A stretch of DNA of 64,000 nucleotides from Candidatus Zixiibacteriota bacterium. Lineage in GTDB: Bacteria; Zixibacteria; MSB-5A5; GN15; FEB-12. A program made the position numbers and the translations under genes. The notes under the pieces are model-generated. The model saw only the letters and a program-made list of their open reading frames with translations, was not told the origin of the DNA and did not search any database. The stretch is taken from positions 434,001 to 498,000 of the forward strand of contig JAGNLV010000002.1 in assembly GCA_017999435.1 (NCBI GenBank). Reading direction: 5' to 3'. Below are positions 3,467 through 25,514 of the stretch, in pieces (positions within the stretch are counted from its first letter, which is position 1; every line of letters starts with the position of its first letter).

Positions 3467-3495
3467 TTGACAGCCGATTGGGCCGATGCTATAAT
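3467..3495 (+). promoter_or_regulatory. Consensus promoter of rex
   Basis: Perfect TTGACA (3467-3472), 17-base spacer, perfect TATAAT (3490-3495): the strongest promoter match in the window. A Rex operator begins three bases after the -10 box. Confidence 0.9.
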
Positions 3496-3498
3496 CTC

Positions 3499-3516
3499 TT
3501 GTGATTCATTTCACAT
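3499..3516. promoter_or_regulatory. Rex operator (autoregulatory)
   Basis: TTGTGATTCATTTCACAT, an inverted repeat matching the Rex consensus TTGTGAANNNNTTCACAA at all but two of the fixed positions. It covers the expected transcription start of rex. A further half-site, ATTGTGAACG, lies just downstream at 3519-3528. Rex binding here would block its own promoter when NADH/NAD+ is low. Confidence 0.85.
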
Positions 3517-3556
3517 AGATTGTGAACGACTGTAACTTACAGCGGCGAGTGCACAG

Positions 3557-4231
3557 ATGAATGTCTCCAGCAAGACCGGTCTCAAGAAGAAGATTTCGGA
3601 ATCAACAATCCATCGGCTGTCGCTCTACTGCCGGGCGCTGAGCCTCCTGGAGAAGGAGAACTACGAGACCGTTTCGTCCAAGGAGCTGGCGAAGCGGGAG
3701 AAGCTGACGCCGGCGCAAGTGCGCAAGGACCTGTCGTTCTTCGGGTCGTTCGGGACGCGGGGGCTCGGGTATCCGGTGAATGAGCTGAAGCAGCGGATTG
3801 CATCGATTCTGGGGATTGACCGGGTCTGGCGGGTGGCCCTGGTCGGGGTGGGGAATATCGGGTCGGCGCTGGTCAGTTACAAGGAGTTCATGAGGCAGGG
3901 ATTCCACATAGTCAAACTGTTCGACAACGACCAGCGGAAGATCGGTTCGAACCACAAGGGAATCATCGTTTCGGATATCGCCAATCTCGAGAAAGAGCTG
4001 AAAGAGGCGGGCATCGAGATCGTGGTGCTGGCGGTGCCGGCGACGGTGGCGCAGTACATTGTGGACGACGTGGTGCGGGCGGGGGTGCGGGCGGTCTTGA
4101 ATTTCGCCCCGGTCAATCTGCGGGTGCCGCCGGATGTCTACCTGCGCAACGAGAACATGTCGATGGAACTGGAGTACCTCTCGTTTGCGCTGGTGAACAA
4201 CCCGCCGAAGAAGGCGAGCAAGCAGGGCTGA
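3557..4231 (+). CDS. rex: Redox-sensing transcriptional repressor Rex
   Basis: 224 residues. Rex binds operator DNA when NAD+ dominates and lets go when NADH rises, so genes for NADH disposal are induced. Seen: N-terminal winged helix (SESTIHRLSLYCRALSLL, then VSSKELAKREKLTPAQVRKDLSFFG with the RKDLS family signature), then a Rossmann domain with GVGNIGSAL and a domain-swapped C-terminal helix ending EYLSFAL. Length is normal. ATG 3557 follows about 60 bases of leader; no strong Shine-Dalgarno is visible. The promoter carries a clear Rex site, and a second Rex site lies in the promoter at 27149-27177. The gene stands just upstream of a cytochrome operon with which it shares no visible operator. 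Confidence 0.96.
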   Translation: MNVSSKTGLKKKISESTIHRLSLYCRALSLLEKENYETVSSKELAKREKLTPAQVRKDLSFFGSFGTRGLGYPVNELKQRIASILGIDRVWRVALVGVGNIGSALVSYKEFMRQGFHIVKLFDNDQRKIGSNHKGIIVSDIANLEKELKEAGIEIVVLAVPATVAQYIVDDVVRAGVRAVLNFAPVNLRVPPDVYLRNENMSMELEYLSFALVNNPPKKASKQG

Positions 4232-17928: not shown

Positions 17929-19440
17929 TTAGAAACCGTAAATTTCCGAATACTTTTCTGTCATATACACCACGAGCGGCTTGTAGTCAAGGGATTTCCC
18001 CGTGATCTTCCGGCACAGCTCGTTGGCCCGGTAGCGGCGGCCGTGGCGGTGGATTTTCTCCCGCAGCCACTCCCGGAGCGGGAGCAATTCGCCGCGTTCG
18101 AACTGGAGGTCGAGGTCGGGCATCTCCTTGCGGGCCTGGGCGAAGAACATGGCCGAGTAGAGGTTCCCGAGCGTGTAGGTCGGGAAGTAGCCGACCAGGC
18201 CGGCCGACCAGTGGACATCCTGGAGGACGCCGTGAGCGTCTTTATCGACCTTCAGACCGAAGTACTTCTCGAAGCGGGCGTTCCACTCAGAGGCGGCATC
18301 GGCCGGTTTCATGTCGCCGGTGAGCAGGGCCCGTTCGATTTCGAAGCGCAGCAGGATGTGAAGGTTGTAGGTCGCCTCGTCGGCCTCGACCCGGATGTAC
18401 GACGGGGTCACATAGTTGATCGCCCCGTAAAACCGGTCGAGGGTGACGTCGCCGAGGGATTTCCGGAACAGCCGCTGAGCCTGCGGGAAGAAGTACTTCC
18501 AGAAAGATTTGGAGCGGCCGACCTGGTTTTCCCACATGCGCGACTGGGATTCGTGGATGCCGAGCGACACCGACTCGGCCATCGGCGTGCCGTAGTACTC
18601 GCTCTTGAGGAGTCCCGCCTCGTACAGGCCGTGGCCGGCCTCGTGCATGATCCCGAAAAGGGCATCGTTGAGCCGGTTGGGATTGTAGCGGGTGAGGATG
18701 CGGGTGTCGCCGTAGCCGATACCGGTGCAGAAGGGATGCGTGGTGATATCGAGGCGCCCGGCGCGGAAGTTGAAGCCCATGGCCGTGGCCACCGACTCCC
18801 CGAACACTTTCTGCCGCTCGACCTCGTACTCGCGTTCCACGATGGTGTGGTCCGGCTTCCGCGGGGCATTGCGGATCTTCTCGTTCAGGACCACGAGTTC
18901 TTTGCGGAGGCTTTCGAACACCTCGCCGACCTCACGGACGTTCGCCCCCGGCTCGTAATCATCAATGAGGGCGTTGTAGGGCTCGTCCTTCCAGCCGTAG
19001 GCGTCCGCTTTCCGGCGGGTGAGCGCGAGCACCTTTTCGAGGTGGGGGAGGAACATGGCGAAATCGGATTTGCGCCGGGCCTCGGCCCAGACCTGCTGGG
19101 CCATGGCGGTGGTGCGGGTGAGTTCCTCGACCAGGCTGTTGGGGAGCTTGGTCATTTTGTCGTAGTCATGGCGCAGTTCGCGAATGTTGGCGGCTTCGGG
19201 CGTATCCCCCTTGGCGAGATCGGAGTTCTCGACCGTCCCGATCATGTCGCCGATTTTCGGGTCGGTGAACATGCGGTGGACGAGCCCGGAGATCGTACCG
19301 AGCTGGTCGGCGCGGAACTGCGCGGCCTCGGGCGGCATGTAGGTCTGCTGGTCCCAGTGCAGGACACTTCCGGCAGAACTCAAGAGCGCCATTTCCCTGA
19401 GTTTTCTGGTGAGTTCGTCGTAAACGGCCTGGGCGGACAT
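17929..19440 (-). CDS. M32 carboxypeptidase (Taq family), copy 1
   Basis: 503 residues. Zinc metallo-carboxypeptidase that removes C-terminal residues from peptides in the cytoplasm. Seen: HWDQQTYMPPEA near residue 28 (family N-terminal motif), the zinc site HEAGH with the third ligand in IHESQSR about 30 residues on, GYGDTRILTRY, and YIRVEADEATYNLHILLRFE. ATG 19440 has AAGGAGG upstream; the frame runs on to 20118 but that is dprA antisense-frame sequence. A second, clearly related copy lies at 23955-25478. Confidence 0.95.
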   Translation of the reverse strand: MSAQAVYDELTRKLREMALLSSAGSVLHWDQQTYMPPEAAQFRADQLGTISGLVHRMFTDPKIGDMIGTVENSDLAKGDTPEAANIRELRHDYDKMTKLPNSLVEELTRTTAMAQQVWAEARRKSDFAMFLPHLEKVLALTRRKADAYGWKDEPYNALIDDYEPGANVREVGEVFESLRKELVVLNEKIRNAPRKPDHTIVEREYEVERQKVFGESVATAMGFNFRAGRLDITTHPFCTGIGYGDTRILTRYNPNRLNDALFGIMHEAGHGLYEAGLLKSEYYGTPMAESVSLGIHESQSRMWENQVGRSKSFWKYFFPQAQRLFRKSLGDVTLDRFYGAINYVTPSYIRVEADEATYNLHILLRFEIERALLTGDMKPADAASEWNARFEKYFGLKVDKDAHGVLQDVHWSAGLVGYFPTYTLGNLYSAMFFAQARKEMPDLDLQFERGELLPLREWLREKIHRHGRRYRANELCRKITGKSLDYKPLVVYMTEKYSEIYGF

Positions 19441-21532: not shown

Positions 21533-22393
21533 ATGGCGCATACCGAGAACAAAGCCGCCGATGACCTGCTCGACAGGGAATTCCGGGTGCTCGACCACGG
21601 CTTCGTGCGGCTGATCGATTACATGGGCGGGGATGAATCTATCGTGCAGGCGGCGCGGGTGTCCTACGGCAAGGGGACCAAGAAAGTCTCGGAGGACCGG
21701 GGGCTGATCCGCTATCTCCTGCGGCACCGCCACACGACGCCGTTCGAGATGGTCGAGTTCAAATTCCATGTGAAACTGCCGATTTTCGTGGCCCGGCAGT
21801 GGATCCGCCACCGCACCGCCAATGTCAACGAGTACTCGGGGCGGTACTCGGTCATGAAAGAGGAGTTCTACATTCCGCCCGAAGAGGAGATCCGGTTTCA
21901 GTCGGCGGTGAACAAGCAGGGGCGGGCGGAGGAGGAAGTGCCGCCGGAGCTGAAACGGCGCTTTGTCGAGTTTCTCCGGAAGATCCAGGCGGATTCGTAC
22001 GCCGAGTATGCGGCGTTGGTCGAGGCGGGGCTGGCCCGGGAGCTGGCCCGGGTCGGATTGCCGCTGTCGCTGTATACCGAGTGGTACTGGAAGATCGACC
22101 TGCACAACCTGTTTCATTTCCTCGGGCTGCGGCTCGACCGGCATGCCCAGCAGGAAATCCGGGCGTATGCGGCGGTGATGGCGGAGATGGTCCAGGCGGT
22201 CTGCCCGCTGGCGTACGAGGCGTTCCTGGATTACCAGCTCCAGGCGGTGCATTTCACGGGGCCGGAGCTGGCGATCCTGCGCCCGCGTCTGACTGATTTC
22301 TGCCCGTCCGAAGATGAGTTGGCATCCGGGGGATTGTCGAAACGGGAGGCGCGGGAGTTCCTGGAGAAACTGGAGAAGGTGCGGGGGGAGTGA
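21533..22393 (+). CDS. thyX: Flavin-dependent thymidylate synthase ThyX
   Basis: 286 residues. Makes dTMP from dUMP with methylene-tetrahydrofolate and reduced FAD, in place of ThyA. The ThyX motif is present as RHRTANVNEYSGRYS (consensus RHRxxSxNxxSxRY, with Val where Ser is often found). Also RHRHTTPFEMVEF (FAD/dUMP contacts) and LFHFLGLRLDRHAQQEIR near the C-terminus. The enzyme is somewhat longer than the usual 220-250 residues, with an insert around 95-125 (EEIRFQSAVNKQGRAEEEVPPE). CGGAGAATCAC precedes ATG 21533; upstream frame back to 20747 is antisense to comF. Confidence 0.96.
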   Translation: MAHTENKAADDLLDREFRVLDHGFVRLIDYMGGDESIVQAARVSYGKGTKKVSEDRGLIRYLLRHRHTTPFEMVEFKFHVKLPIFVARQWIRHRTANVNEYSGRYSVMKEEFYIPPEEEIRFQSAVNKQGRAEEEVPPELKRRFVEFLRKIQADSYAEYAALVEAGLARELARVGLPLSLYTEWYWKIDLHNLFHFLGLRLDRHAQQEIRAYAAVMAEMVQAVCPLAYEAFLDYQLQAVHFTGPELAILRPRLTDFCPSEDELASGGLSKREAREFLEKLEKVRGE

Positions 22394-22565
22394 CCGCACC
22401 TTCGCACACTCCGCGGACCCTCGGATCATGCGCCTGCAGTCGGGCCGCCGGGAGCGTCCCGGGCCGAGCACTTTCGGAACCTCCTTCAGTCCGTCGGCGG
22501 AGAATCGACCGGCAGGACCGCTCCCGGCGACCCATCCCGCACCGCAACTTTTCTGGAAATTTCGC

Positions 22566-22593
22566 TTGACACGCGCGGCCGCGCGTATAAAAT
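22566..22593 (+). promoter_or_regulatory. Strong promoter of the structured leader RNA
   Basis: Perfect TTGACA (22566-22571), 16-base spacer, TAAAAT (22588-22593); TATAAA at 22586 is an overlapping alternative. Transcription should begin near 22600, more than 400 bases before the next start codon. Confidence 0.8.
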
Positions 22594-22599
22594 AGGAAA

Positions 22600-23011
22600 C
22601 TCCGCCACCAGAGAAGCGTACTATGCTCACCACGTAGCATTACTTTTCTGTGCGGGGAAAGCCTGCCCTCGGCCGTGTGCCGGGGGAATGACCGTAAACT
22701 CTTACTCACCGGGCCCATGGTCCGGGACCAGAGGTTGCCACATGAGTCTCCACGCAACTGATAGACCAGCCTGGCGAATTCCGCTAGGTAAGGTGGCCTG
22801 ACGGTCGGGCTGAGGTTTTTTTCCGCTCGAATCCGCTTCGCGCCTGCACGGGGATGCCCGTGAAGGCCTGCAGTTCTCAGCCCCGCCCCGACAGGTTACC
22901 GTCGGCACAATGACATGGCTCGCTAGTGGCCGAGGTCGACCCGTGTGTTCGGGTTGTTCTCGCCCGCAGAGGGTCGCGTGTGCCCAAGTCACGGTATGAT
23001 GTTCGTGGACC
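22600..23011 (+). ncRNA. Long structured leader / non-coding RNA of unknown class
   Basis: No open frame with a ribosome site is seen, but consecutive hairpins are: 22612-22649 (ATGCT/AGCAT stem with GTA/TAC and AGAA/TTCT extensions), 22666-22686 (8 bp), 22709-22725 (7 bp, CAT loop), 22734-22758 (GTTGC/GCAAC), 22770-22788 (7 bp, AATTC loop), 22796-22810 (6 bp, then seven T), 22842-22867 (CACGGG/CCCGTG plus GCC/GGC), 22888-22905 (5 bp), 22939-22954 (5 bp). The segments 22807-22814 and 22876-22883 are perfectly complementary and compete with the hairpin before the T run. The RNA could be an attenuated leader of the NADAR gene or a separate small RNA ending near 22822. It does not show the conserved cores of tmRNA, RNase P, SRP or 6S RNA that I can recognise. 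Confidence 0.6.
22796..22822 (+). terminator. Candidate attenuator in the leader RNA
   Basis: GCCTGA / TCGGGC stem with a CGG loop (22796-22810), five bases, then T7 (22816-22822). The right arm overlaps GGGCTGAG (22807-22814), which can instead pair with CTCAGCCC (22876-22883). That pairing would prevent the terminator. Confidence 0.5.
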
Positions 23012-23029
23012 ATGGAGGTTGAGAACCAG

Positions 23030-23881
23030 ATGGATCGCAAGCGCGAAGACACGATCGTGTTCACCGAGGACCACCGCCGCTACGGCGCGTTTTGCCTTGG
23101 TGCCCCCTACGTCATCCGCATCGATGATGTATCGTGGCCGACCGACCGCCACTACCTGCTCGGTATGAAGTACCCCGGCGTGAACCCTCTCCGTCTGCGG
23201 CAGACGGCGTCATACGCTGAGGCTGTGAAACTGGTGCAGACGGAGGGCGCTGTCGAGCGGGTGAAATGGGATGTGGTGCGCGACGATTACCTCGAACGGG
23301 TTCTCCGGGCGAAGTTCTCGCAGCACCTCGACCTCGAGGCGCTTCTTCGCAGCACGGGCGACCATCCCCTGGTCTACGGAAATGCGGATGATTCGTACTA
23401 CGGGGTTGGCGCCAGCGGAGCCGGGCACAACATGTTCGGCCGGATCCTTATGCGCGTCCGCGGGCGCGTCGATCGGAGCGTTCCGGAGCCCCACAATGCG
23501 GTCATCGAGGGCTGTGAGGAATGGGTGCGTCGAAACCCGGACGATATGAGCGGTTTCCTCAGGCTCACGATCGTTTATCTTGCGAACCGGATGCCCGAGC
23601 GCGCGTCGGCGACCGCCTACCGGGCGATTCATCTTGACCCGCAGGATCCTCGGGCGCGGATCGCTCTCGCCTACGCCCTGGTGGACCAGCACCGCTTCGG
23701 CGAAGCGCTTGAACACCTGCGGTTCGTCAATCGCCGCGGCGAGGCGGATGAGGATGACCTGCGCCTCCTCGCAACCGTCTACCGCGCCCTGGGGCGTGAC
23801 GTTGCCGCCGACGTTCTCGAGTCGCGCGCTCGCCGCCTGGAAGCCGAAGAGGAGGACGACTGCGACGGAGACGACTTCTGA
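23030..23881 (+). CDS. NADAR-domain protein with C-terminal TPR repeats
   Basis: 283 residues from ATG 23030; GGAGG at 23014-23018 favours this over ATG 23012, which overlaps it. Residues about 20-145 look like a NADAR domain (YbiA/RibX type): LGMKYPGVNP, a VERVKWD segment (usual WxxVK), LRAKFSQHLDLEALLRSTGDHPLVYGN, then YYGVGASGAGHNMFGRILMRVR (usual DxxWGxGxxxxGxNxLGxxLMxxR). Such proteins are N-glycosidases acting on ADP-ribose or riboflavin-pathway intermediates, and some reverse ADP-ribosylation of DNA in toxin-antitoxin pairs. From about 160, two or three TPR-like units follow (PDDMSGFLRLTIVYLANRMPERA, ARIALAYALVDQHRFGEALEHL), then an acidic tail. No DarT-like toxin is adjacent. The family call is by eye and the usual Trp of DxxWG is Tyr. 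Confidence 0.65.
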   Translation: MDRKREDTIVFTEDHRRYGAFCLGAPYVIRIDDVSWPTDRHYLLGMKYPGVNPLRLRQTASYAEAVKLVQTEGAVERVKWDVVRDDYLERVLRAKFSQHLDLEALLRSTGDHPLVYGNADDSYYGVGASGAGHNMFGRILMRVRGRVDRSVPEPHNAVIEGCEEWVRRNPDDMSGFLRLTIVYLANRMPERASATAYRAIHLDPQDPRARIALAYALVDQHRFGEALEHLRFVNRRGEADEDDLRLLATVYRALGRDVAADVLESRARRLEAEEEDDCDGDDF

Positions 23882-23954
23882 GCGGAGGAAAGGTCGGGGC
23901 CGCCGGCGGCCCTGATCTCTCCCGGCGCCGGCACTTGGATTGCGCCCGGGGCGC

Positions 23955-25478
<1,524 letters not shown>

Positions 25479-25514
25479 GGGAGACTCCTTCTGCAACGGT
25501 AACGCGTGTGTTCA

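Follow-up and report, generated by a model that had tools for sequence, protein, structure and literature searches.

A structured leader RNA upstream of a NADAR-TPR gene in Zixiibacteriota, with a short reading frame that may serve attenuation

In actinobacteria, whiB7-type leaders act as antibiotic-sensing attenuators, and their induction by antibiotics has been demonstrated. Type III toxin-antitoxin loci, such as ToxIN, consist of a promoter, a structured RNA and a terminator-like stem, followed by a protein gene. The toiL upstream open reading frame (uORF) of E. coli topAI-yjhQ senses ribosome stalling and controls both access to the ribosome-binding site (RBS) and Rho termination (PMC12121999). 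NADAR enzymes undo guanine ADP-ribosylation on DNA and RNA (PMC11543638, PMC11833690); YbiA and the DarT-linked NADARs carry the motif EHYxxxxK, whose catalytic Glu and Lys correspond to E88 and K95 in the E. coli C7 NADAR (PMC11543638). A limited literature search returned nothing on the control of NADAR genes, and no leader of the kind reported here was found described before NADAR genes in the searches made.

The locus lies in a 64,000-nucleotide stretch of DNA from a Candidatus Zixiibacteriota bacterium (hereafter the window), where the neighbouring genes encode ThyX and an M32 peptidase. Two paralogous M32 carboxypeptidase genes (17932-19425 and 23958-25496, both on the - strand) bracket the segment of ThyX, leader and NADAR. 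The leader is about 430 nt long and runs to about 23029 (Table 1); its end is placed there because GGAGG at 23014-23018 sits before ATG 23030, the likely start of the NADAR-TPR gene, ATG 23012 being the less likely one. Taken together, the window segment is regarded as a real structured leader RNA tied to the NADAR-TPR gene.

Table 1. Features of the leader and the NADAR-TPR gene (positions in the window)
Feature	Position	Strand	Basis or remark
-35 hexamer TTGACA	22566..22571	+	single exact TTGACA within 600 nt 5' of the NADAR start
Perfect 16-bp palindrome ACGCGCGGCCGCGCGT	22571..22586	+	fills promoter spacer; read from sequence
-10 hexamer TAAAAT	22588..22593	+	promoter scan
Structured 5' leader RNA	22600..23029	+	5' end placed from the promoter; folding strand-specific, z between -3.5 and -2.8
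Hairpin, 8 bp, loop 5	22666..22686	+	hairpin search
Hairpin, 7 bp, loop 3; alternative partner 23000-23015	22709..22725	+	hairpin and pairing search
GAGG, Shine-Dalgarno of uORF	22731..22734	+	sequence scan
uORF, 19 codons, MSLHATDRPAWRIPLGKVA, then stop	22742..22801	+	scan for ORFs preceded by a Shine-Dalgarno
Hairpin, 8 bp, loop 5, within uORF	22769..22789	+	hairpin search
Terminator-like stem (22794-22812) over uORF stop, then AGG and T7 (22816-22822)	22794..22822	+	weak stem
Hairpin, 6 bp, loop 4	22847..22862	+	hairpin search
GTTCTCAGCC, complement of NADAR ribosome-binding region 23017-23026	22873..22882	+	p 0.03 alone
Hairpin, 7 bp, loop 6	22937..22956	+	hairpin search
GGAGG, Shine-Dalgarno of NADAR-TPR gene	23014..23018	+	read from sequence
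NADAR + TPR protein, 283 aa	23030..23881	+	Pfam; AlphaFold model pLDDT 91.7; best PDB match YbiA 2b3w

The near-perfect sigma-70 promoter noted in a preliminary description of this DNA held up on scanning: TTGACA-N16-TAAAAT (22566-22593, +) scores 11/12 against the consensus, is the sole site of such score in 22300-24000 (0.1 expected), and is one of two sites of at least 11/12 on either strand of the 64-kb window, the other being a 12/12 site on the + strand at 3467. The palindrome that fills its spacer may be an operator. The promoter spacer of one related locus (L007, see below) is near-palindromic too and has ATTTCGCTTGACA in common with that of the window, which suggests a common operator. 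As a separate observation, the perfect 12/12 promoter at 3467 (3467-3557) lies 5' of the gene for a redox repressor of the Rex type (3557-4231; PF06971 and PF02629), and TTGTGATTCATTTCACA directly 3' of its -10 resembles a Rex operator, making autoregulation of that gene probable.

The transcript predicted from the leader promoter is strongly structured. Positions 22600-23011 fold with a minimum free energy of -181.3 kcal/mol (z -3.46, with 0 of 100 dinucleotide shuffles as low), and the segment of about 22601-23029 gives z -2.83 (200 shuffles). The folding is strand-specific (z -3.30 for the + strand against -0.46 for the - strand). Of 60 further segments of 429 nt taken from the window (mean z -0.04, sd 1.15), not one folds as low. 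At least nine consecutive hairpins had been claimed; the structure is indeed beyond chance, but eight perfect non-overlapping local hairpins were counted, with stems of 5-8 bp. Similarly, the statement that more than 400 bases lack a credible frame agrees with the absence of any + strand ORF of at least 40 aa inside the leader, yet it had missed the ORF of 19 codons preceded by a Shine-Dalgarno sequence.

Rfam (release 15) was searched at gathering and lax thresholds, and no family scored above or near its threshold; the window stretch had no match at E<=1 and the loci of four relatives none at E<=2, which supports the earlier designation of the RNA as unassigned. An RNA antitoxin of the type III toxin-antitoxin kind was rejected, as the leader holds no tandem repeats; its single repeat is a 13-nt pair whose copies lie 120 nt from each other. 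The order of promoter, structured RNA, terminator-like stem and protein gene resembles that of ToxIN-type loci; the locus differs from them in lacking such repeats and in encoding NADAR-TPR rather than a ToxN-type nuclease. A known defence system was likewise rejected, the PADLOC matches being weak (a candidate defence-protein model, TPR-type regions).

The same layout, one TTGACA followed by a non-coding leader and NADAR-TPR, recurs in four other Zixiibacteriota genera (loci L003, L004, L005, and L007). These were found by an alignment-based scan, in which four relatives had a leader and many further NADARs were plain ones; a scan of genome contigs for relatives with a single protein returned nothing. 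Exactly one TTGACA lies within 600 nt 5' of the start codon in each of the five loci, at -464 in the window, -381 in L003, -385 in L004, -488 in L005, and -384 in L007, the one in L003 being without a credible -10. All five leaders fold better than their shuffles (z -2.8 for the window, and -3.5, -2.0, -1.4, and -4.4 for the others). Since the neighbouring genes differ between loci, promoter, leader and gene appear to travel as a unit. In the window, the promoter scan found no second promoter before the NADAR gene, and no terminator was seen between the leader end and the gene.

Comparison of the leaders themselves yielded one clear relationship. The L004 and L007 leaders are homologous (z 11 over the whole leader), with a conserved core at -265..-110 (z 8.25) between dissimilar 5' and 3' flanks. 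No other pair could be aligned by sequence, so that the intergenic alignment proposed in the preliminary description succeeded for L004/L007 but placed the window leader with no relative. When the window leader was compared by blastn with 98 relative genomes, with phages and with plasmids, and the leaders of L003 and L007 with 132 phylum genomes, self matches alone stood out, the rest being at chance level. A Sankoff-type structural comparison covering 6 of the 10 pairs reached at best z 2.1 (window-L005). Several hairpins occur in the same order in L004 and L007 with different stem sequences; this order is suggestive of a common structure only, because the sequence- and structure-based registers disagree. 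No covariation is claimed, as a covariance model with L007 as its sole sequence gave no significant match to L004 and the home-made Sankoff alignments are noisy. The saturation of sequence between most leader pairs would suit a long, poorly constrained 5' untranslated region of a horizontally moving accessory gene, devoid of regulation, as would the sporadic occurrence of the gene (a NADAR match at E<=1e-20 in 8 of 132 phylum genomes, five of the eight with a leader). We consider this explanation rather improbable, given that the folding, the spacing of the promoter, the core shared by L004 and L007, and the uORFs are all beyond chance.

A closed uORF preceded by a Shine-Dalgarno sequence is present in 5/5 leaders (19 codons in the window, 54 in L003, 14 in L004, 37 in L005, and 15 in L007), and in all five its stop lies 5' of a segment that is rich in pyrimidines or holds a T-run. 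Such a uORF of at least 14 codons occurs in 10-17% of shuffled leaders and in 0/5 of the antisense strands; with a 10-codon minimum, the frequency is 12.5% in 410-nt stretches drawn at random from the window. The joint chance for all five leaders is about 4e-5 to 9e-5 by shuffling, a significance weaker than computed because the criterion was formed after inspection. Between L004 and L007, the Shine-Dalgarno sequence and ATG of the uORF align. The pyrimidine-rich tract 3' of the uORF is clear in L004, L005, and L007; it is not clear in the window, and a Rho site of this kind common to all leaders was therefore rejected. The terminator-like stem in the window is weak, with the T-run 3 nt beyond it, and runs like the T7 at 22816 are very rare in the 64 kb.

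The peptides encoded by these frames look unalike, and tblastx between leaders gave nothing convincing (best cross-leader E 0.04), a negative result on which a hidden protein gene in the leader was rejected. It follows that the act of translation, not the peptide, would matter. Recurrence of closed, Shine-Dalgarno-preceded ORFs in every leader could also mean that their products are small proteins with a function, or an antidote encoded in the leader, the RNA folding being incidental; for peptides of 14-54 aa with no obvious mutual similarity and unconvincing tblastx matches, this is very improbable.

The anatomy of the locus leads us to propose, tentatively and at somewhat less than an even chance, that the structured leader acts in cis and that its uORF is translated, giving ribosome-dependent attenuation of NADAR-TPR. 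The sigma-70 promoter would produce a long structured 5' leader of the NADAR-TPR mRNA, and a ribosome would translate the short leader ORF. Its progress over the uORF would decide whether RNA polymerase, or later a ribosome at the RBS, passes on to the NADAR gene. The element acting after the uORF stop might be the weak stem and T7 in the window and the pyrimidine-rich tract, possibly for Rho, in relatives, while translation stress could be the natural signal. We infer four parts of this scheme: that leader and gene are co-transcribed, that the uORF is translated, that attenuation takes place, and what the signal is.

The closest working analogue is toiL-topAI, and the leader anatomy fits such control. 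Both systems comprise a short ORF preceded by a Shine-Dalgarno sequence, a structured leader, and a downstream gene with conflict or stress relatives; its pyrimidine-rich tract, and perhaps its occlusion of the RBS, also have counterparts in the present leaders (PMC12121999). The genes and sequences are different, however, and the roles of Rho, ribosome stalling and RBS release are experimental in toiL-topAI (PMC12121999), whereas we infer them for the NADAR leaders. With the whiB7-type attenuators, the likeness is one of anatomy: a leader of several hundred nucleotides, a uORF, and a terminator-like element.

Control of the RBS by pairing was considered in its own right. The complementarity of the GTTCTCAGCC type to the RBS has p 0.03 for the window and a combined p of 0.11 over five leaders; helices not exceeding chance, an RBS-sequestering switch common to all leaders was rejected. 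In a simple folding model, placing a ribosome on the uORF gave no consistent release of the RBS. Another possibility is a leader of the riboswitch type, in which a ligand would switch the pairing of the RBS and the uORF would have no role. It would draw on two sets of pairings in the window that exclude each other: 22873-22882 with 22808-22815 or 23017-23026, and 22715-22730 with 22709-22725 or 23000-23015. Such a leader is distinctly improbable, as the RBS-complementary helices stay within chance over the five leaders, which moreover have no sequence-conserved, aptamer-like core in common.

The protein encoded downstream contains, according to Pfam, a NADAR domain (PF08719) plus TPR repeats, and its AlphaFold model also matches a Phytophthora NADAR, ranked below YbiA. 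Mapping of catalytic residues by motif alignment indicates that the catalytic Glu positions are lost in 4/5 leader-linked NADARs, L005 being intact. The Glu of EHY is replaced by Arg in the window, Asp in L003, Ser in L004, and Thr in L007, and the second superfamily Glu (LVEHT) by Tyr, Tyr, Tyr, and His, respectively; the Lys of EHYxxxxK is kept in the window and not in L003, L004, or L007. In L006, L008, and L009, relatives that have no leader, the EHY Glu is retained. The NADAR domain is common to these loci and the DarT-NADAR operons (PMC11543638), but 4/5 leader-linked proteins have neither the superfamily Glu nor a Glu at the position of E88. Identity with a DarT1-associated NADAR antitoxin was rejected for the proteins of the window, L003, L004, and L007, whose EHYxxxxK catalytic residues are not intact. 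Judging from the residues, the leader-linked NADARs without catalytic Glu are possibly pseudoenzymes or enzymes of altered specificity. In L007 (1483-2319), a TAA in frame lies between the NADAR half and the TPR half, so that there are either two genes or one broken gene.

This altered active site makes a binding role conceivable and, together with the separation of the L004/L007 core from the gene, makes a trans-acting non-coding RNA beside its protein partner the chief alternative, albeit an unlikely one. NADAR-TPR would bind RNA (compare Ro/Y-RNA-type pairs), and some transcripts would end at the internal T-run, yielding a free RNA of about 225 nt. The strong, strand-specific structure agrees with this, as does the core at -265..-110, which is parted from the gene by a dissimilar 3' stretch. 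Against it speak the lack of a recurrent terminator at the core end, the lack of a second promoter before the gene in the promoter scan, and the presence of Shine-Dalgarno-preceded uORFs, which are unexpected in a non-coding RNA.

The preliminary description had left a choice between a new class of regulatory RNA and a leader controlling the NADAR gene. By position, control of the NADAR gene is well supported (the layout recurs in four other genera behind unrelated upstream genes, and no intervening terminator or second promoter was found), whereas a new class is possible but not established, because there is a single alignable leader pair and the recurrent uORFs point to an attenuator-type leader. 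More specifically, a new structured-RNA class forming a ribonucleoprotein with the catalytically altered Zixiibacteriota NADAR-TPR, or sensing the state that it handles, seems quite unlikely.

If the proposed attenuation is true, the uORF leader would couple translation stress to a protein with a NADAR domain, a connection that a reporter could test in a simple way. That long leaders occur together with Glu-less NADARs suggests a changed role, in binding or sensing, for that branch of the protein family.
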